This document shows, one piece after another, positions 28,701 through 51,134 of a stretch of DNA of 64,000 nucleotides; the stretch's first letter is position 1; the number at the start of each line of letters is the position of its first letter. Source of the DNA: Apoderus coryli (taxonomy: Eukaryota; Arthropoda; Insecta; Coleoptera; Attelabidae); assembly GCA_911728435.2 (NCBI GenBank), contig OU452207.1:372001-436000 (forward strand), read 5' to 3'. Both the position numbers and the translations under genes were made by a program. The notes under the pieces are model-generated. The model was not told the DNA's origin. It searched no databases and saw only the letters and a list, made by a program, of their open reading frames with translations.

Positions 28701-31700
28701 ATAAGCTGCAAATTTGGTATTGTCATGATAAAGCATTAATCTCAAATTGTGGTCAATCGTTTCGTTTTTACTTTCTTGTGTGAATCGTTGCAAATAAGAC
28801 ATGTCTTATCTGGCGTAAAAGTTGAAATTGACATTATAAGATAAATAATTATTTAAGTGAAACTCAGCTATTTCGATACTATCAATCATGAAATACTCTT
28901 CGCCGTTCTTCATTATTCTGGATTCTCAAATAACTCAATCAATTTGTTAAAGTCATATTTCGATGGTAGATATCAATTCGTTGAGACTTCAGAGGGCAGC
29001 TCGGATCTGGGAGAGTTACTATGTGCTGTGCCGTAGGGGTCAGTCTTGGGTCCGCTACCGTTTTGTTTGTATACCGCTAATTTACCGGAGTGTTTGCAGA
29101 AATGTACTGTTCATTATGGTTTGTATTTATGCCATCTCTAGTAAAAGTTGCTTCATCTGACCAGAGCACTTTTTCTAAAAATCTTTCAACTTCTTGATGC
29201 TTACCAAGAACCCAATTACAAAATAGTAGGCGCCTTTCACGGTCTCCAGGATGTAGGGCCTGGACATCTTGATTATGATAGAGATAGAGCATTTCTCGAT
29301 TTAATAGTCTCCAAACAGTTGTTCGAGGTAATGCCAATTGAGTTGGTATTCTTCTAGTGCTTATTTTCGGATCGTCTAAAACTAAATCCACTATGTTTTC
29401 TTCAGTTTGAATGTTTAGACGATGCGGTTGTTTGTTAACTCTAGGTAAAATGCTCCCTATCGTTCTAAGCCTGTGAAATGTAGCCGTCCCTGTTTTGTGA
29501 TATGGATGACGTCTATTAGGATACCTATTTTGGTATTCTCTGGCCGCTGCTCTTGCATTTGCATTACACAAACATATTCTTTAATTGAAAAATTAATTTT
29601 AATTTAGAAAAAAACATTCGCAATATTAAAAACAACTACGAAATAATAAAACAATTTTAACTAATTTAAATTTGTTGCTGTCAAAGTTTTTTTTTAGTGT
29701 TGCGGCATTCGTTTTCCATGGAAACTTTGATTTTTCATTTGGTTTTCTGGTAAACATTATTTTAATTTAAATCTACCATTAACTTGCAATTTATCGGTTT
29801 CCATAAATGATGCAGCAGAGACTTGTTTATGGATACTTTAAAATTAGATATTAACTTTTATTAACGATAACTATATAAAAAACTAACTTGACAATCTATT
29901 AATTTATTTGACAATCTATTATTGTATTTGTAACAATGTGACGTGAGTGAATTTTTTGTTAATTTTATTCCAGGTATAATTGGTGTACTTGCTATGTTAC
30001 AATTTGTCATATTGAATTTTTCTAAAATTTCGTCAATGTACTTTCGCTGATTTATTGAAATTCCATTACTTTCCTTTTTGAATTCTATTCCTAAACAATA
30101 TTTAATTTCGCCCAAATCTCGCATTTTGAATGTTGAAGTTAATTTTTCTTTAATATCTCGAATTGCATTCATAGATTTCGAAGCAATTAATATATATATC
30201 ATCAACATATACAGCGAGTATTATTTTTGCTCCTCCTTTCGTATATAAATACATACAAGGATGTGCTGTTGAAGATTTAAAACCTAATTTTTTTAAAGTT
30301 TCGTCAAGCTTCTTGTACCATTGGCGTCCAGCTTGTTTTAGCCCATATAACGCTTTCTTTAATAAACATGCTTTCTCATTTCTCCCTCTTTTTAAATCTT
30401 CTAACATTTTTCTTGTTTTTTCGAACAATTCTTTGTCTTCATTTAGACTCTCTTCTAACAGAATTTCATGTAAATAATTTTCTAATTTATAAGGTATTTC
30501 CATAAATATTTCTTCTTCTAATTCTCCATTTAAATATGCTGTCGTTACGTCCATTTGATGAATTTTCATGTCTTCTTCAACAGACATTGCGACTAAAAAT
30601 CTAATCGAACTAAGTTTTACAACAGGTGCAAATGTTTCTGTGAAATCAATATTTGGTTTCTGGGCAAAACCTCGAGTTACTAATCTAGCTTTCTTTCGTT
30701 CGATACTTCCATCAGCTGCTAATTTATTCTTTAAAACCATTCTACAGCCTATTGGTTTTTTATTGTTATTTTTATTAACAATAATCCAGGTATCGTTATG
30801 TATATGTGCTTTAATTTCTTCTTTTATTGCTTCCTGCCATTCTGCGGAATTTTCTTCATCAGAAAAACATATGTTTGAGAATTCTGCACACAAATAAGAC
30901 ATATCGTAATCTTCTGTCCAAATTGGAGCTTTTCTGTTACGATTAGGTCTGCTTTCTTCAACACTGATGTTTTCAATTTCTTCGTTTGTAATTTCATTTT
31001 CTTCGAATTCTTCATCGCCTTGTATATTACTTTGATCAACTGTTTTAGAAGTTGAAGGTAAAATTACAATTTTATCATTATTTTCTATATTTGAATTCTC
31101 TAAAAACATTTCATAACTTTCGTTTTCTCTTCTATATTTTCCGTCAAACTTGTTTAATATTTTAACATCACGACTGACTATCAGTTTTCTCATTTCTGGC
31201 ATACAAATTCGATATCCTTTTGAAATTTCTGAATAGCCCATGAATATACCTTTTTTAGTTTTAGAATTAAATTTTCCTTTTTGAGGATTTTTATTCATAA
31301 TAAATGCTTTTGCTCCAAATTCATGAAGGTGTCTTACAGAAGGAATTTTTCCTGTCCAACGATAATATGGTAGTTCGCCTTGTATTGATCGGGATGGTGA
31401 CCGATTAACTAAATAATTCGCTGTATTAACAGCTTCAGCCCAAAACATTTGAGGTAGTTTTGAGGCTATTAATAGACATCTGGCTTTTTCAACTAGCGTT
31501 CTGTTTTTCCTTTCAGCCAAAATAATGCAGATTATTTTAGGTTATCGGTCCCCAAATGCATGTAAAATTTTGTCAAAATCGATTAGGTAGTTTTTGAGAC
31601 ATGAACAAGAAAGTTAATTTGACTACTAAATTCGCACACCCTGTATCTCGATAACGAAGCATTTGCGGACATGGGTTCAATGGCAAAAAATGCTAAAATC

Positions 31701-43700: not shown

Positions 43701-46356
43701 AGATGATTCACATAAAAAAGAATATGAACAGCATAAATGACAGAGCTGACATCCAATTTTTGATTGTAGCGATAGACATTTTTAACATTATTTTAAACAA
43801 TGCCAAATATTAAACAGAAATGATCTGAATTTTCTGGTACTTTATTAATGTTGTTATATATTATATGTATACCTAAATGTCTTCGTCAAAATGAAAAGAT
43901 GTTGTAAGGTATGTTTTATTAAATTATTTTTATTCTGTTTTAAAGTATTATGAATTTAATTGAAACCCTAAATCGGACAATAAAGGAATTAGAAGAAAGA
44001 TTAACAGGTTTGAAAAGTAATACAAAAAAACCAATGGGCACTAGCGTGGGATCTCAAACTTTCTCAGTAAGTTTTGATAAACATACTCAAACAGACACAA
44101 AAGGCAAAACTGCGGCATTCACTCAAACAGTTAAGAAGTCTGTTATATCTTGCGTTACCCAGACTGATGAGACTACGACCCTGCAGGATGAACTCACAAA
44201 TATGACCCCTACAACAGTGACAGATGTTACTATAGATAGCCAATCACTAACAGAAATAAGTAGAAGTATTTGTGGATGTTTTGAGTGGTCTTGTTGGTGA
44301 CAGATTCCTAGTCTCATCTATTATAAAAAATAACGCCACTCTGTCATGTGTTGTCGAAGACATTAAACAACTAACTAAAGGGTTTAATAAAAGCGATTTC
44401 GTGGTTATTAGTGGTGGAACAAGATATGTTACCTTGGGCAAAATGTTGGAAAATGACGCTGTAAAATTGATAAAAGATGTGAGTTCTAGAACAAATGTAA
44501 TTTTTACGTCTGTGCCTATATATTCTAACAACTTCTACCTAAACAGATTAATTGATCATTTCAATATTAAGAACTCTAGGCAAAATTTTTGAAAAGATAC
44601 TCTTTAAACAATTAGCCAACTATTTTGAAAGAAATAATTGATTTTCTCCAAAACAATTTGGATTTAGACCGAAACTTAACACCGTTTCAGCTATAGAAAA
44701 CTTTATAAATAGCGTTATAACCGCTTTTGAGAGTAGAAGGCTTGTGGGGGCTTCTTTTCTTGATTTAACAAAGGCGTTTGATTGCGTTTCACACGATATC
44801 TTGTTGGGTAAACTGGAGCGATACGGTATGAGTGCGAATTCGATTCGTTTGCTGAGTTCCTATCTCACTGGTAGGAATGTCGTAACGATGTTTGAGTCAA
44901 AGTCTTCTCAGCCCTTGTTGGAGTCCCACAGGGCTCGGTGCTCGGACCTCTATTGTTTTTGATTTTCATTAATGATTTACAGCTACATCTGCCATGCTCT
45001 GACCTGACATTGTTTGCAGACGATTCAACTATTGTCGATGTTGAACTGTCGAGTGATGTTCTGGCCTCAAGTATGATTAATTCACAGTCGAGGGCTGCGG
45101 ACTGGTTTGCAGCTAACAAACTCTGTATGAATGCCAATAAAACAGCTACTAAAATATTTACATTACGTGAGACGGATGTTGCTGTTTCTGATGGTCTGGT
45201 AAAGTTTTTGGGTGTCACTTTGGACCAAAAGCTAACCTGGGCAGGTCATGTCGAGGTTACCATTGCCAAGTTGTCTAAGGTTGTGTTCATGTTGCGAAGC
45301 TTGAAGGGTGAAGTCTCTTTTAATGTTTTGAAATCAGCATATTATGGCCTTTTTCACAGTGTGGCTTCATATGCTTTGTCAATTTGGGGACACTCTTGTC
45401 ATGCTAGTCGGGTATTCGCAATCCAAAGACGAGTGGTGCGAATAATGACAGATTTAAAGTTTAGAGAGGATGTCAGACGTAAATTTAAAGAATGTAAAAT
45501 AATTACACTCTCGTGTCTCTATATCTACAATTCAATTATGTATGTGAAAAATAATTACAATCTGTACATAAAGAATGATGAAGTTCACAACCACAATACC
45601 AAAAACAAAAATGACATTCTTCCTGAATATATGAGGTTGGGTAGAGGCAGAAATTCTGTGAATTATTATGGTCCGACATGCTATAATCATTTGCCAGATA
45701 GTTTAAAAACACTGAGCCTTGCAATGTTCAAAAATAGATTGAAAAACTACTTAATTGACCAGGCTTTTACTCCATTGATGAATTCCTCAGCACTGACTTT
45801 CTGTTTTGATTAAGTTATATACATTTTTATGTTTTTATGTTGTGTACTGTAATATTTTAATATTTAATATGACTTGTGTAAACCTTTTTTGGTAATGACA
45901 TGTAATGACAATAAATAAATAAATAAATAAATTGTAAGGCTCGTGAATTGTTTTGTTGGTTACCTGTGTTTTTAAAAAGTTTTGTTGAATACATGTTTTT
46001 GTTTTATGTTAATGAAATATTTAATATTTTTTAGAAATTATAAAAAAAAAAGAAGTTTCTGTTGCCTGAAGAAGACAACGTAATGTTGTCGAAACGAAAA
46101 TATTATTTCAAAAAGCTAGTTTCATCTGAACCTCATTTCCCAAGAAAATCGACTAGTAAAAAAATTAAATAATAAGGTTCAAGAAAACTTTCAAGAATAA
46201 TAGAAGTTTTTTAAATCAATCTGATTTCTATTATTCTTTTTTGTGCAGAGTGAAAGTCATGTAAAAACTTGCTAAAAACTTAAGTTTCTATATACGATAT
46301 AAAAGCACTAACCTTGTGTTTACGACAAACACTACAAATATCAATTTAAAAATCAT
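16790..46356 (-). CDS. RR-domain cuticular protein (CPR family), six exons
   Basis: Minus-strand exons 46356-46313, 41248-41020, 39552-39238, 22046-21867, 18586-18467 and 16885-16790 sum to 984 nt and encode 327 aa; the first intron is phase 2, the others phase 0, all GT-AG. Residues 1-18 (MIFKLIFVVFVVNTRTLA) are a signal peptide. Residues 19-196 are Gln/Pro/Tyr-rich with poly-Gln runs. Residues 197-257 are the chitin-binding Rebers-Riddiford domain: YQFGFDVKDD, GSYSVVDADGYIRTV and YTADPKEGFKAEV. A VTREPTDIVVKIPKPEP linker and a second poly-Gln tail follow to residue 327. Such proteins bind chitin in the extracellular cuticle. Start choice: only this ATG gives a signal peptide and a matching splice phase. 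Introns are swollen by TEs; intron 3 is 17.2 kb. The RR-1/RR-2 subtype is not assigned. Confidence 0.92.
17000..17254 (-). other. Unclassified open segment in cuticle intron 5
   Basis: A short minus-strand frame (VPELLGTHVFHDLELDFF) lies next to the jockey 3' tail. I do not recognise it; it may be part of a TE or spurious. Confidence 0.25.
17255..18430 (-). mobile_element. Jockey-superfamily LINE relic in cuticle intron 5
   Basis: Minus-strand pieces of the RT: LYTDFCKAFDCVNHG (18417-18217), MDLNVSKCFLINFNRSRNS (18102-17899) and IQHRFLRFIHFNFQRP (17809-17609). It ends with an (ATT)n tail at 17260-17282, the expected 3' end of such LINEs. Its 5' end is only about 37 bp from cuticle exon 5. 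Multiple frameshifts. Confidence 0.7.
18600..19590. other. Cuticle intron 4: possible hAT end and a hairpin
   Basis: CAGTAGCGGCTCGTG at about 18627 resembles a hAT terminal repeat, but no partner end is found. CTATTTGAGAAT near 18982 pairs with ATTCTCAAATAG near 19018 as a 12-bp hairpin. The rest is AT-rich. Confidence 0.3.
19600..21290 (-). mobile_element. Dong/R4-like LINE relic with restriction-like endonuclease
   Basis: Minus-strand order: an RT remnant with FIEYRKAFDSTSHQLL (about 20900-20860), an internal part with NLNKDKPLHGVFYNT (about 20490), a tail with LSPCPTYGHLHRHDAALRVL (about 20256) and a segment with NKADIVLLEK and KIFVIEFSAPAET (about 20060-19990). The last resembles the restriction-enzyme-like endonuclease that sits C-terminal to the RT in R4/Dong LINEs. 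Several stops and frame changes. A second member is at 23344-24330. Confidence 0.6.
21467..21650 (+). mobile_element. mariner transposase fragment
   Basis: NRIIVTGDEPSVHHY matches the first catalytic Asp region of mariner transposases (usually GDE.WVHHY). Only about 60 codons remain, in cuticle intron 4. Confidence 0.6.
22047..22565. other. Start of cuticle intron 3, no repeat recognised
   Basis: AT-rich intron sequence next to exon 4 (acceptor at 22047-22048). No coding content is seen. Confidence 0.4.
22566..23358 (+). mobile_element. Jockey-superfamily LINE, RT relic cut by a Dong-like element
   Basis: The frame at 22589-23077 has SGPDDIPAFILRD, CRPVSLLPNFSKVFE and IYTDFSKAFDKLNHS. After one frameshift the next frame has NGAPQGSCLAPLIFSVFIND and VADDLKLYR (normally F/YADD). 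The protein stops being jockey-like near 23358, where the opposite-strand Dong/R4-like element begins: a sharp chimeric junction. Confidence 0.8.
23344..24330 (-). mobile_element. Dong/R4-like LINE C-terminal half
   Basis: A 290-residue open frame (24216-23344) contains LYLPRSSGGRGLCNIEE, KPLHGKFMSALNSQ, a CCHC-type knuckle (CRLCHAVQETIQHLSSGC) and a C-terminal RPDIVLFCKK with CFILDVAVPLDHNI, as expected for the restriction-like endonuclease of R4/Dong LINEs. The RT core is missing; an AT-rich (TTA)n tract at 24310-24331 lies upstream of the fragment. The open frame is intact, so this copy is relatively young. Confidence 0.65.
24331..25097. other. Intron DNA, no gene seen
   Basis: AT-rich sequence without recognisable coding or repeat ends. 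The 3' untranslated end of the CR1-like element probably starts near 24960. Confidence 0.4.
25098..26345 (-). mobile_element. CR1/jockey-group LINE relic
   Basis: Minus-strand frames: RT fingers/palm (26339-25755) with GFRSNRSTDTALGQA, FFDLSKAFDTIGHK and NGIPQGSCLSPTLFNIFIN; a second (25773-25435) with STKFLGIYTDNKLTWSTHI; and a C-terminal one (25544-25098) with HSHNTRNKNNLVLPFSRS. The catalytic box reads YADE instead of YADD and is followed by a deletion, so the RT is dead. A 21-base C run interrupts the region. Confidence 0.8.
25509..25529. repeat. Poly(C)21 homopolymer
   Basis: Twenty-one consecutive C on the + strand inside the CR1-like RT relic; on the coding strand it reads as a poly-Gly run at the frame change. 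Confidence 0.95.
26346..27169. other. Intron DNA, no gene seen
   Basis: AT-rich. Possibly the 5' remainder of the LINE at its left end; otherwise nothing recognisable. Confidence 0.4.
27170..27265 (-). mobile_element. Tc1/mariner transposase C-terminal tag
   Basis: The minus strand reads VNICEEVEKYGEVGGGHLED, like the C-terminal end (..GGGH.E..) of many Tc1/mariner-type transposases. Too short for certainty. Confidence 0.4.
27352..28255 (-). mobile_element. Jockey-superfamily LINE, RT relic
   Basis: Minus-strand pieces: SGVPQGSNLGPLLFLLFIND and FFADDLKIFATID (28288-27908), MRSKLEYSSIIWYPQYN (27819-27634) and a C-terminal end with RTNVLLRSPVHVMCSNFNRV (27594-27352). It is 5' truncated at about 28255, inside the RT. 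Frame breaks make it inactive. Confidence 0.8.
28256..28984. other. Intron DNA, no gene seen
   Basis: AT-rich, nothing recognisable. Confidence 0.4.
28985..29120 (+). mobile_element. Short LINE RT fragment
   Basis: GSVLGPLPFCLYTANLPECL follows a stop where Gln of the PQG motif is expected. It is a third type of RT in the window, cut by the Tc1/mariner piece that follows. Confidence 0.5.
29077..29571 (-). mobile_element. Tc1/mariner-superfamily transposase, N-terminal two thirds
   Basis: A 164-residue open frame carries a DNA-binding part (ARAAAREYQNRYPNRRHP), HPGDRERRLLFCNWVLGK and the first catalytic block WSDEATFTRDG. The catalytic core after it is missing (3' truncation at about 29110). 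The same family is at 47690-48330. Confidence 0.75.
29861..31524 (-). mobile_element. Ty1/copia retrotransposon, integrase end to RT
   Basis: A 456-residue open frame (31520-30150) starts in the integrase C-terminal region (MAERKNRTLVEKARCLLIAS, then LHEFGAKAFIMNKNPQKGKF), passes an acidic linker and enters the RT (KNKLAADGSIERKKARLVTR, MDVTTAYLNGELEEEIFME, KKALYGLKQAGRQWYKKLDE), reaching the catalytic YVDDIY. There a (TA)n slippage at about 30185-30199 shifts the frame; RT sequence continues in a second frame (30208-29861). Gag, protease, most of integrase, RNase H and LTRs are missing, so this is an internal fragment with a long intact frame. Confidence 0.88.
31525..31940. repeat. GGGTGT-box repeat copy and flank
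   Basis: In reverse orientation, ATTTATACAGGGTGATTCAT (about 31755-31736) and GAGATACAGGGTGTGCGA (about 31648-31631) form the two-box repeat. GCATTTGCGGA near 31661 also resembles the copy at 13543. No gene is seen. Confidence 0.5.
31941..32125 (-). other. Open segment of unknown origin
   Basis: The minus strand reads KLIDIVGGGSATFAIHDKNQ and goes on to VKGDTYYE followed by GT. The composition is protein-like and could be an exon or a TE remnant. I do not recognise the family. Confidence 0.25.
32126..32649. other. No gene seen; possible LTR-like end
   Basis: TGTTACGGAC at about 32092 resembles an LTR start, but no matching partner or target duplication was found. Confidence 0.3.
32650..34575 (+). 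mobile_element. I-like LINE: RT, RNase H and CCHC tail
   Basis: Domains in order: RT from the PQGSPLSP region (stops before it) with LKFADDILIVCSG (about 32825-32865) and VKYLGIEFDYQLNWRVQV; then, after a frameshift near 33355, a linker and RNase H (about 33715-34105) with the acidic residues of FTDGS, TAEIIAIKRA, IFSDSRAAL and EIADQLA. A further shift near 34085 leads to a C-terminal part with CECGEEETLQHIFFECP (a CCHC knuckle) ending at 34563-34565. I-clade LINEs have this layout. It is 5' truncated in the RT and inactivated by two frameshifts, but each domain is well kept. Confidence 0.82.
34576..35964. other. LINE 3' end then intron DNA
   Basis: About 150 bp of the I-like element's 3' UTR, then AT-rich intron. 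No gene seen. Confidence 0.45.
35965..36200 (-). mobile_element. LINE C-terminal zinc-knuckle fragment
   Basis: Minus-strand RRLRIGHTKVTHAPLMNKDD and CNSCQRQLTVKHILSDC match the C-terminal tail of RNase-H-bearing LINEs. It abuts another LINE fragment. Confidence 0.6.
36250..37205 (-). mobile_element. Non-LTR RT relic of a further family
   Basis: Minus-strand pieces: LLSIAGKVLARILSNRL and ETQCGFRPNRGTADMIF (about 37120-37000), FDSVNLEALWRMLR, VIELQYADDNVVLADTEED (about 36700-36645), then VVPTHTYTCESWTTYWKH near 36450. Frames change several times. Fragments at 57340-57540 and 59430-59620 are from the same or a related family. Confidence 0.7.
37206..37734. other. Intron DNA, no gene seen
   Basis: No domain or repeat end recognised. 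Confidence 0.4.
37735..37960 (+). mobile_element. R1/I-group LINE C-terminal relic
   Basis: ELLKSWAKKEHQRYWDRISK corresponds to RELLKYWAKNAHQRYWEHIP in the copy at 4999-5436. The remainder is out of frame. Confidence 0.6.
37961..38485. other. Intron DNA, no gene seen
   Basis: Unrecognised sequence between the LINE relic and the Penelope-type inverted repeat. Confidence 0.4.
38568..38600 (-). ncRNA. Hammerhead-like core, left arm
   Basis: On the minus strand: CUGAAGA, extra A, 6-bp stem II GACAAA/UUUGUC, then GAAACGUC, with GUC as a proper cleavage triplet and ACGU as a minimal or dimeric stem III. Confidence 0.6.
38805..38837 (+). ncRNA. Hammerhead-like core, right arm
   Basis: Identical to the left-arm core but on the plus strand: CUGAAGA 38805-38811, extra A, stem II 38813-38818 with 38824-38829, GAAAC 38830-38834, GUC 38835-38837. 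Confidence 0.6.
38969..38996 (-). ncRNA. Hammerhead-like core lacking a cleavage triplet
   Basis: Minus strand: CUGAGGA, then a 4-bp stem CUAA/UUAG flanked by a C-C mismatch, then GAAACGCGC. There is no NUH triplet after GAAA, so it is probably inactive. Confidence 0.4.
39611..39635 (+). repeat. (TGGGT)5 microsatellite
   Basis: Five perfect TGGGT units in cuticle intron 2. TTGGG-type repeats act as telomere repeats in some beetles; here it is too short to claim that. Confidence 0.9.
39780..40270. repeat. Possible short interspersed repeat in cuticle intron 2
   Basis: CGCCATCTAGCGG (39810) and CGCCACCTAGCGG (about 40115) bracket a non-coding stretch that ends in CCGGTATATCC. It looks like a non-autonomous repeat, but no termini are proven. 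A 74-residue minus frame at 40691-40467 is unrecognised. Confidence 0.35.
41318..41540 (+). repeat. GGGTGT-box repeat copy
   Basis: ATACAGGATGTTTCGGAAAG followed by GAGATACAGGGAGTTAAAA about 85 bp later. Confidence 0.45.
41546..42576. mobile_element. Non-autonomous DNA transposon (about 1.03 kb) with ACGTT subrepeats
   Basis: The ends are imperfect inverted repeats: CCAGTAAACACACATACG at 41546 and the complement of CCATTAAACACATATACG ending at 42576. The interior has dozens of ACGTT/AACGT words and a 21-bp inverted repeat (TAATACGATTACACAAACGTT near 41779 with its complement near 41820). No transposase is encoded. The superfamily is not assigned; no target duplication is seen. Confidence 0.6.
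42112..42160. repeat. 10-bp inverted repeat GTTTCGGCGA / TCGCCGAAAC
   Basis: This lies inside the 1.03-kb element. It resembles the stem II/GAAAC part of hammerhead-like repeats but lacks CUGANGA. Confidence 0.35.
42727..43150 (+). mobile_element. Tc1/mariner transposase N-terminal part
   Basis: KYTDMFLTLGKCLGSATAS and RRARAGRPKSVTPKT (42727-42950) are followed, out of frame, by LKEYELHPYHYRQVQELLPD and FPQRLDFCEF. This is the DNA-binding and linker part of a transposase; the catalytic core is missing. In cuticle intron 1. Confidence 0.65.
43160..43505 (-). mobile_element. Penelope-like element RT fragment
   Basis: Minus-strand KPTWSQRYTHYNSSHPLSHK followed by LADRAIMLTDPEY matches the region just downstream of the Penelope RT core. 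Decayed by a frameshift. Confidence 0.65.
43545..43813 (+). mobile_element. Penelope-like element endonuclease C-terminal fragment
   Basis: NTALKKHIEEHNHEFNFEST and KKREILEMIHIKKNMNSIND match the C-terminal end of the GIY-YIG endonuclease region of Penelope-like elements. It is opposite in orientation to the RT fragment just upstream, suggesting an inverted rearrangement. Confidence 0.6.
43950..45935 (+). mobile_element. CR1/jockey-group LINE, ORF1 joined to RT by deletion
   Basis: ORF1-like frames: a coiled-coil start with METHOD-like spacing absent but LIETLNRTIKELEERLTGLK clear (43950-44300), then an SGNH-esterase-like part with DFVVISGGTRYV (44272-44592). The endonuclease is missing. From 44585 the RT begins directly (LGKIFEKILFKQLANYF), with FLDLTKAFDCVSHD, a frameshift at the PQG motif (about 44930), LTLFADDSTIVDVE and a C-terminus with HNHNTKNKNDILPE ending at 45811-45813. 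The 3' end is an (AAAT)n tail at 45910-45931. Internal deletion and frameshifts make it inactive, but the last 291 codons are open. Confidence 0.82.
46066..46095 (+). ncRNA. Hammerhead-like core, no cleavage triplet
   Basis: CUGAAGA (46066-46072), extra A, perfect 6-bp stem II GACAAC/GUUGUC (loop GUAAU), GAAAC, then GAAAA instead of GUH. The core fold is kept but the site is lost. Confidence 0.5.
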
Positions 46357-48510: not shown

Positions 48511-49745
48511 ACTGATAATTTCTCAATTGACTCTCAATTAAAGTTGTAAAATGAACGTGCATGACAGATTATTGAAAATTGTTAATGTTTCGCGTTTTTG
48601 TGCCTAATATTAATAGTTTTGTAGGGTTGTCAATTGTATTATACCTACTATTTAAGGTGAATCTCCTACTAAATTGTAAAAAAACCAATGGTATGATTCT
48701 TTTTCCAAGGACGCGGATGTAATTAACGTGAGAAGTACCACGAAAATACACTAAATTAGACTTAGGTATAATAATTTCAATATAAATGACTAAATATCAC
48801 TATCAATGGTAACAACGAGCATATAAAGATTTGAAACGCAATTAAAAAGGAGAAAACAATGTGTAAATGTACACTTTTATGATATTTATGGAGATATTTA
48901 TGTATGTTGTTTAGGTATGTGCATGTTGGCTACGGTCAAATGCCTCTTATTAATGAAAAAATGTATACATAGCGATCTATAAATGAGTGTGAATTTCTGT
49001 GTATGAATGTACGCACATATTGAGCTCTCTCACTCGCCACCAATTTGGGTTTTAATTGATCACTGTTCCAACTGACTGACCAAGATCATTAAATGCTTTG
49101 TTACTCAACTACAAAAATATATATTTACAAATGTTACATTTTAAATGTATACCTACACATTAAAGTACCTACACGTTGGTTTAACATTTGAAATAATGAG
49201 AAGAATAATTAATTAGGTTGAGAAATTTAATTACCGATATATCCGTAATAATTAGTAATCAGTAAATTAGTGAGAACGATGTTGATTTTAGTAATTCCAG
49301 ATTTCAACAGATTGCTTCATTATCCAGTGATATGGGAAACATAAAAACATTTCCTATTTTTGGTGTTTTGTTAGGTACTAGAAAGAGTTAAAGATTCTTC
49401 ATTAGTCCAATATTCTCACTTATCCAGCTCCCTTCACAGATCTGAACAATTTTCAGCGTTTTCTCAGCAACCATTTATGAAATCGTCCACGTGGTAATTA
49501 TTCATTGCCACACAATTGGCTCTGAGTTTTCTGTGAAATTCCGCGACAATTCATTGCTCTATTCTTTATCCTTATCACTCTTTTTGAGAAAGGGAAGAAT
49601 AGCTCTTATACAAATGAAGGCCACAGAGAGACTGATTTGTTTACAGAAGTGTATGGAGGTGAGTTTATTAGATTAAAATTTTGTATCATTAGTTATACAT
49701 TTTTTTTATTTATCATTACGAAACTAAATATTTGTTGACAAGATC
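48511..49745. other. No gene seen
   Basis: AT-rich DNA without recognisable elements. Confidence 0.4.
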
Positions 49746-49992
49746 TTAAAAAGATTTTTGCCAGTTCATTAGGTGTGACGTGGAGAATTTTTCTAATATG
49801 AATCTAATTGGAAATTAACCTCCTATAACCTTAGATTAATATTAAAAAAATTCTCCACGCCACACCTAATGAACTGACAAAAATCTTTAAAATATCAAAG
49901 TCGCCATCAACTTCTGGTATAACCGAAATTCAATTCAAGGCAGTCCCTGGAATATACTAATGGGCCGCCACCATAGGACAACACCGTGTATA
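49746..49992 (-). repeat. Interspersed repeat copy 2 with a 50-bp foldback
   Basis: 49895-49992 is the inverted counterpart of the repeat at 46932-47165. Next to it, about 50-bp arms (49746-49799 and 49837-49890; shared core CCTAATGAACTG) are inverted with few mismatches. Confidence 0.65.
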
Positions 49993-50217: not shown

Positions 50218-50230
50218 AGTAATTATATTA
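50218..50230. repeat. Left 13-bp target-site duplication
   Basis: AGTAATTATATTA, repeated exactly at 51122-51134 on the other side of the retrozyme-like insertion. Confidence 0.8.
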
Positions 50231-50381
50231 AGAGGATTTCATGTCCGTAAGTATAATAAATGAAAATAATTTCGTGGCAAAGCGGACTAAAATGTTGGCT
50301 TTACCTACACAAGGAATTTTGTTTAATTTAGCAGGGCCCCAGTCTAATTCGATAGAAACCAGACCGAGGCATGGGTCGACA

Positions 50382-50429
50382 GGTACTGACGAATTCGTTT
50401 CGCTCTTGTTATGAGCTCGTCAGAGCACC
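50382..50429 (-). ncRNA. Complete type I hammerhead ribozyme, copy A
   Basis: Minus strand: stem I GGUGCU with AGUACC (6 bp, one G-U), CUGACGA, stem II GCUC/GAGC with loop AUAACAA, GAAA, stem III (A-U, C-G, G-C) with loop AAUU, cleavage site GUC. Every conserved core base is present and no extra base follows CUGANGA. Confidence 0.88.
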
Positions 50430-50896
50430 ATAGTCGCTGCCCATCACAAATATCGGCCTGCATTTAAGCACAATAGGATACACAACAGTAGACACATGTA
50501 AACATATATCATCTACATGTACATAGTAATGCATATCCCATACCATGCAGAGGCCGAACAAACTCAATGTATAGGTAAAACCAGTCGTATAAATAGAAAT
50601 AAAAATAGTATGAACACAAAACGCTAGCAGGAGACCATTTTATCCTTCTGCCAGCATCTCCCAAATATTTGGGTTTCAGCAATGCTCGGACGGTGGTCTC
50701 CAAGCGTTCTGCCGTCGATGTTTAATGCCAAATAATGAAAAATTAAGAGGATTTCATGTCCGTAAGTATAATAAATGAAAATAATTTCGTGGCAAAGCGG
50801 ACTAAAATGTTGGCTTTACCTACACAAGGAATTTTGTTTAATTTAGCAGGGCCCCAGTCTAATTCGATAGAAACCAGACCGAGGCATGGGTCGACA

Positions 50897-50935
50897 GGTA
50901 CTGACGAATTCGTTTCGCTCTTGTTATGAGCTCGT
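50897..50935 (-). ncRNA. Truncated hammerhead, copy B
   Basis: It has everything from ACGA of the CUGANGA box to stem I's 3' strand, but lacks CUG and stem I's 5' strand because the inversion starts there. Not self-cleaving on its own. Confidence 0.75.
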
Positions 50936-50953
50936 GTGATGGGCAGCGACTAT

Positions 50954-51001
50954 GGTGCTCTGACGAGCTCATAACAAGAGCGAAACGAATTCGTCAGTAC
51001 C
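50954..51001 (+). ncRNA. Complete type I hammerhead ribozyme, copy C
   Basis: Same 48 nt as copy A on the plus strand: stem I 50954-50959 with 50996-51001, CUGACGA 50960-50966, stem II 50967-50970 with 50978-50981, GAAA 50982-50985, stem III 50986-50993, GUC ending at 50995 (cleavage after it). Confidence 0.88.
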
Positions 51002-51121
51002 TGTCGACCCATGCCTCGGTCTGGTTTCTATCGAATTAGACTGGGGCCCTGCTAAATTAAACAAAATTCCTTGTGTAGGTAAAGCCAACATTTTAGTCCG
51101 CTTTGCCACGAAATTATTTTC

Positions 51122-51134
51122 AGTAATTATATTA
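51122..51134. repeat. Right 13-bp target-site duplication
   Basis: AGTAATTATATTA, a perfect match to 50218-50230. Its first base overlaps the last base of the palindrome's right arm. Confidence 0.8.

Follow-up and report, generated by a model that had tools for sequence, protein, structure and literature searches.

Results

An insertion with two arms

By what route did a small element with hammerhead motifs come to lie, partly turned round, between two copies of its chromosomal target? The question is raised by a locus of the beetle Apoderus coryli, within a stretch of 64,000 nucleotides of contig OU452207.1 that we analysed as a whole and call the window. The insertion is 891 bp long (50231-51121) and is flanked on both sides by perfect 13-bp duplications. 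The original prediction was that of a young retrozyme-like insertion framed by a perfect direct repeat, and this repeat is present at both places. The proposed 515-bp unit with its identical partial copy is also there: with a periodicity of 515 bp, positions 50227-50420 match positions 50742-50935 at 100% identity over 194 bp. The element is, however, not the simple tandem that had been supposed. It contains an inverted arm, absent from the prediction, of which the 187 nt are 100% identical to unit positions 294-480, and it is a head-to-head palindrome with two reproducible outer ends. The features of the locus are as follows.

50218-50230, no strand: target-site duplication, left copy, AGTAATTATATTA
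50231-50741, minus strand: outer unit of the A arm, bounded on the outside by site A (unit position 511)
50368-50439, minus strand: complete type I hammerhead of the outer unit; core CTGACGA at 50423, predicted cut 50388/50387
50742-50935, minus strand: partial second unit (194 nt) on the inner side of the A arm, without differences from the outer unit
50903-50935, minus strand: incomplete hammerhead in the partial unit, truncated at the centre; matches positions 22-54 of the 77 in the HH9 model with 14 bits
50935-51121, plus strand: inverted B arm, 187 nt, equal to unit positions 294-480; outward it ends at site B
50944-51015, plus strand: complete type I hammerhead of the inverted arm; core CTGACGA at 50960, predicted cut 50995/50996
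51122-51134, no strand: target-site duplication, right copy

The unit was numbered along the reverse complement of 50227-50741, and in this numbering the predicted ribozyme cut falls between positions 354 and 355. The A arm consists of one 515-bp unit and, inward of it, 194 bp of a second copy; its sense strand is the minus strand. The arm turns round at 50935, so the sense strands diverge from this centre toward both target duplications. Four nucleotides beyond site A of the window (TAAT) are common to the element and the duplication. The GC content of the unit is 40.4% in the 515-nt form and 39.4% in the 525-nt form, and it contains no run of six or more A. The longest stop-to-stop frame of the unit, judged by frame length only, is 76 codons, in agreement with the claim that no protein is encoded. 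Since no frame is longer than this, the element itself is not a Penelope-like element.

The window also holds other repeats and mobile-element remnants. A 66-nt inverted repeat at 49742-49896 (89% complementary, 23 nt apart) adjoins the left side of the element and is unrelated to it in sequence. An RVT_2 (Copia-type) frame at 30150-31541 on the minus strand and an RVT_1 frame at 44896-45813 on the plus strand are remnants of other mobile elements. A weak match to a Tc3-type transposase, under the Pfam cut-off, lies at 29077-29580 on the minus strand.

Hammerhead motifs of the unit

Both copies of the unit had been predicted to carry complete type I hammerheads. This holds for the full unit but not for the partial copy, where the junction at 50935 deletes the 5' strand of stem I and the first bases of the core. 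The second complete hammerhead lies instead in the inverted arm, on the other strand. Two of the three hammerheads of the insertion are thus complete, one on each strand. A scan with strict type I geometry found two motifs in 64 kb; 100 mononucleotide shuffles of one strand, amounting to 6.4 Mb, gave none. With the Rfam model HH9, both complete motifs score 20.6 bits (E 0.043; the gathering score is 52), and at the gathering threshold no Rfam match was obtained in the 64-kb window. The ribozyme pattern had no match in viral contigs, a set that may omit records near the present genome. The minimum free energy (MFE) fold favours a core/cleavage-site pairing over the hammerhead (-27.0 versus -21.8 kcal/mol, with tertiary contacts outside the model). 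This core-blocking pairing counts against our best explanation. From the sequence and the motif models, we infer that the unit may cleave itself.

Copies of the element in the genome

The assembly comprises 428 Mb in 129 contigs. Other copies of the unit were looked for, as the prediction had proposed, and at least 174 matches were found. We analysed 40 loci, namely the window and 39 fetched ones, the best-scored of 1553 first-look candidates. Because the loci were taken by score, the sample is biased to the copies nearest the query, and the age of the whole family is not derivable from it. More than 480 unit positions are spanned by 108 pieces; 53 of these have the majority sequence over the part that they cover, and 23 differ from it at one position. 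Substitutions are absent from 61 of the 108 and number more than five in none, and some of them sit at misaligned outer ends. The main form has 525 nt; units of 515, 519 and 522 nt also occur and owe their length to indels in an AT-rich tract. In the same tract, the outermost A-arm unit of L036 has a 31-nt insertion at consensus position 136, likely to have originated by slippage.

Head-to-head palindromes were found in 35 of the 40 loci, and the other five (L015, L016, L022, L033 and L043) are single-armed. Outside the window, the tandem content of one arm reaches about 6.8 units. The retrozyme-like element has spread recently in this genome. These other copies fit the reading of the locus as a young insertion with a target-site duplication, and the circular or multimeric RNA template that had been put forward would fit them too.

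Target duplications and single-copy target stretches

Perfect duplications of 12-15 bp flank all 35 palindromes and 36 of the 40 loci overall. One of them, at L025, fell outside the first search range and was recovered by a wider search. As a control, the duplication finder reached 12 bp at 5 of 1000 random positions of the same flanks. Among the single-armed loci, L022 has a 13-bp duplication and L016 a doubtful one of 9 bp; in L015, L033 and L043 there is no duplication of at least 8 bp within the range searched. L015, L016, L033 and L043 have one arm ending at A, lack a clear target duplication and are perhaps one-primer events closed by end joining.

The flanks match other sequence in 14 of 34 duplication-bearing loci, and seven alignments across the junction were inspected. 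In five paralogous stretches, for four loci other than that of the window (L012, L020, L023 and, with two stretches, L040), the site lacks the insertion and the target is present once. It is exact in three of the five; the stretch for L020 and the second one for L040 each show a small change in it. L011 (81/96 aligned, two target changes) and L041 (a gap across the target) were left out of this count.

Outer ends, cut motif and priming

One outer end, A, lies at unit positions 510-520 in all 34 palindromes that were mapped. The second end, B, lies at 479-485 in 32 of them, and L011, whose 1-nt deletion blocks exact mapping and made it necessary to read the B end by eye, brings the number to 33. 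L035 has a 13-bp duplication and a second outer end at unit position 303, not at B. In L025, B is at its usual place (by eye), and the A end lies about 14 nt beyond the usual one. Both loci count against our best explanation. The A-B offset is 28-41 nt with a median of 32 (33 of the 34 mapped, L035 being left out). Two A ends or two B ends occur in none of the 35 palindromes. Under independent draws, 33 mixed A/B pairs out of 33 would have a probability of about 1e-10, a value that should not be taken at face value because the query was the full unit ending at A, which favours loci with an A end. This bias does not disfavour A/A pairs.

At the target, A stands at -2 in 29/34 and 31/34 loci on the two sides (binomial p about 1e-9 and 7e-12), and at -3 in 21/34 and 22/34. 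On the strand that is extended from its 3' end, the cut motif common to both sites reads 5'-^NTT. Since the cut is at this motif on both sides, the duplications correspond to two 3' overhangs, each able to prime. Just past the start, the microhomology between target and RNA extends over 2.1 nt for the 30 A ends and 2.3 nt for the 31 B ends included; L035 and ends with extra non-matching bases (three at A, two at B) were left out. Simulated insertions processed with the same boundary finder gave a mean microhomology of 1.0, and 0 of 300 reached the observed value at either end. Circular MFE folding of both unit lengths, 515 and 525 nt, places A and B in loops or at their edge, in two adjacent predicted hairpins; the copies are too alike for covariation.

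Template lineage and centre junctions

That the copies are mirror images suggests that RNA of one kind is copied from both ends of the cut target DNA, as happens in Penelope-like mobile elements. In 21 loci both arms cover the main indel region, and they agree in all 21 (probability 6e-8 under random pairing). Lineage markers, comprising point changes and other indels, are covered in both arms of 10 loci (L009-L014, L038, L042, L046 and L047), with no discordant case. Two substitutions private to L012 are present in 8/8 covering pieces, and a 1-nt deletion in L011 in 3/3. Other changes are confined to single pieces, as expected of later mutations or copying errors. L014 and L038 have one marker-free piece each (396C is present in 5/6 pieces and 459T in 11/12, respectively). 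One monomeric circle does not account for the mixed units of these two loci, and this counts against our best explanation; the mixed units could have arisen by template switching, from a dimeric circle or by gene conversion.

Along the unit, the inner ends of the arms are evenly spread (KS p 0.33 for 70 ends). Within a locus the two inner ends bear no relation to each other (KS p 0.95 for 35 loci), and 2 of 35 pairs lie within 15 nt. Seven inner ends are recorded as position 1 because BLAST stopped at the unit edge. Not more than 10 nt from the ribozyme cut lie 6 of the 70 inner ends, versus 2.9 expected, and three of these six are at the self-complementary GTCGAC. The joints at the centre have a short overlap in 18/35 loci, no overlap in 4/35 and extra bases in 13/35. 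Among 34 loci the longest A arm is 3565 nt and the longest B arm 2542 nt; the A arm is the longer one in 20 (Wilcoxon p 0.23).

Penelope-like elements of the same genome

The genome contains at least 150 GIY-YIG matches (150 scored of 1260 candidates). Where neighbours stand less than 8 kb apart, all 19 pairs have the order minus-then-plus and so stand head-to-head, with the nuclease domains on the outside. One such Penelope-like pair, L078, is the single copy readable at both ends. Its arms (2263 bp at 99.2%) are head-to-head and have a 13-bp duplication, a small hammerhead-like motif lies by each outer end, and the two outer ends differ in length, one reaching about 32 nt further (by eye). 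A member of this group, L069, also terminates at the shorter of these ends (by eye). RVT_1 and GIY-YIG are both found in the longer frame of L078 (774 aa), which makes this element an active-looking candidate helper. Named relatives in a protein search include sequences of beetles (Tribolium, Molorchus), mosquitoes and further arthropods. When the unit was compared by BLAST with 31 GIY-YIG loci, no similarity beyond chance emerged (best E-values 0.58-0.75). As the unit shares no sequence with these 31 loci, the helper remains a candidate, and this counts against our best explanation. A second GIY-YIG group (L052, L056, L058, L059, L067 and L068) has a different hammerhead-like motif, CTGAGGAAGTTACTAATTAGTAACGAAACG, with an A-rich stretch downstream.

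Discussion

A palindrome with two distinct reproducible ends points to Penelope-like machinery and to priming from both target ends. We consider it probable that the element is a non-autonomous metazoan retrozyme inserted by two-ended target-primed reverse transcription, with Penelope-type enzymes acting in trans. Such a scheme has to account for what is read directly in the genome: the duplications, the A and B ends, the cut motif, the shared markers, the junctions at unrelated unit positions and a Penelope-like element with this layout. For the template, the order of steps and the helper, we infer the following. Arrays would be transcribed, the hammerheads would cleave the transcripts to unit-length pieces (about 515-525 nt), and ligation would close these into circles. 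A Penelope-like protein, composed of a reverse transcriptase and a GIY-YIG nuclease, would cut both target strands, 12-15 bp apart, at 5'-^NTT. This staggered cut would leave two 3' overhangs, each of which would pair over about 2 nt with the RNA and prime reverse transcription. One overhang would start at site A, about 160 nt past the ribozyme cut, and the other at B, about 32 nt upstream of A. Both polymerases would copy RNA of one lineage, probably one circle, over up to about 7 unit lengths. The two cDNAs would then be joined wherever they stop, giving a head-to-head palindrome between the duplications. The part of the scheme that concerns two-ended priming on a shared RNA is well supported by these sequences; a single RNA circle, and a Penelope-like element of this genome as the helper, are likely.

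Self-priming on an antisense template was the preferred account of the Penelope inverted repeats in 2013 (PMC3846280). In the present case, a single cDNA would fold back and prime itself, and the second arm would be copied from the first. This would give head-to-head arms with the same lineage markers; the short overlaps at 18/35 centres agree with it, as do L028 and L044, which join at the self-complementary GTCGAC. However, folding back is expected to produce two like outer ends, and one A and one B are seen in 33/34. The copied arm should not exceed its template, yet no arm is consistently longer (A in 20/34), and folding back alone yields no target duplication with the cut motif on both sides. 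We regard this route as unlikely. Another version keeps the two-ended priming and replaces the circles by long linear multimeric transcripts. The private changes in every covering piece of L012 (8/8) and in L011 are easiest to understand if one unit was recopied, and the inner ends show no single 5' stop (KS p 0.33). Both observations speak against linear multimers, although these would explain arms that cross the ribozyme cut site unbroken and the mixed units in L014 and L038, and unprocessed RNA was the dominant Penelope substrate in vitro (PMC11167929). This version is possible but rather doubtful.

Inverted arms could also have come from a LINE. LINE-1 twin priming, in which two primers are used on one RNA and part of it is inverted, yields such arms, and the window contains LINE reverse-transcriptase fragments (RVT_1 at 44896-45813). 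Mobilisation by a LINE, with the inverted arm as a product of ordinary twin priming, is very improbable given that the second start here is fixed about 32 nt from the first and not random, that the unit lacks a run of six or more A, that the cut motif is the same at both ends and that the Penelope-like elements of the genome have the same layout. The arms here, unlike those of LINE-1 twin priming, also span several units. Perfect 12-15-bp duplications, single targets at paralogous stretches, and reproducible ends with a cut motif at many loci make it hardly credible that we are dealing with satellite DNA, reshuffled by recombination or by DNA circles that reinserted, or with an assembly artefact at palindromes, even though hammerhead satellites exist in other animals and palindromes are difficult to assemble.

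By its anatomy, as far as it can be read from DNA, the element belongs to the metazoan retrozymes, with a unit on the long side. Its type I hammerhead, low GC, absence of an evident protein and tandem units are shared with metazoan non-LTR retrozymes, as are target duplications of more than 4 bp (12-15 bp here) and circular RNA as the proposed template (PMC7229834). The GC criterion given for metazoan retrozymes is below about 45-50%, and the values here are 39.4-40.4% (PMC7229834). Their units are about 150-450 bp and their RNAs about 170-400 nt, compared with 515-525 nt here; we take unit size as typical and not as defining, because the same paper describes species-specific sizes and circles from 150 to >1000 nt (PMC7229834). 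Unlike the published metazoan retrozymes, the present copies are palindromic with two fixed outer ends, and the words 'inverted' and 'head-to-head' are absent from the main text of PMC7229834. Plant LTR retrozymes, as described in PMC7229834, are also non-autonomous, carry a hammerhead and propagate through circular RNA, but they have LTRs, a type III hammerhead and 4-bp duplications in place of the type I hammerhead and 12-15 bp found here. Metazoan retrozymes have been described as tandem copies, and Penelope-like elements were named as no more than a strong candidate for completing the mobilisation of these retrozymes (Cervera and de la Pena 2020, PMC7229834).

The insertion signature is Penelope-like and is sharper than in the papers compared, with one A end, one B end and one lineage per insertion. 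Penelope-like elements share with it the head-to-head inverted repeats, the target duplications, the hammerhead and two start sites separated by a tail of about 30-40 bp, the offset here being 28-41 nt (PMC3846280, PMC11167929). A preference for AT-rich targets and an ATT motif are common to both as well (PMC11167929). Head-to-head Penelope repeats with a 31-bp tail have been described (PMC3846280). In vitro, a Penelope protein cuts and extends both strands, prefers 5'-ATT-3' and uses two adjacent internal start sites that match the genomic tail (PMC11167929). In contrast to Penelope-like elements, the present element has no reverse transcriptase or nuclease gene, and its ribozyme is longer than the minimal Penelope type. 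In the in vitro reaction no difference in start site was seen between the strands, whereas the two ends here use different sites, which counts against our best explanation (PMC11167929). The in vitro start site was described as non-homologous to the cut DNA, and ribozyme mutants had no effect on insertion in vitro (PMC11167929).

Retrozymes, and Penelope as their candidate helper, are already in print. The two-armed architecture was not found described: among the open-licence papers listed by keyword searches, no title or abstract opening gave an account of a two-armed retrozyme. We see the evidence as evenly balanced on a narrower proposal, that a Penelope-type complex grips one circular retrozyme RNA at two fixed start sites, spaced by about 32 nt and each primed by one end of the target DNA, while two polymerases circle it, often repeatedly, until their cDNAs become joined. 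If one circle with two primers is true, the inverted repeats and the tail of Penelope would be explained without self-priming or an antisense template, and these retrozymes would be parasites of Penelope-like elements. The finding bears on how animal retrozymes move and on how Penelope-like elements acquire inverted repeats. Dozens of near-identical insertions show both ends, the target motif and the template lineage, and both questions are directly testable in them. The family offers a natural case of a small RNA that would be copied repeatedly, primed by the ends of chromosomal DNA.
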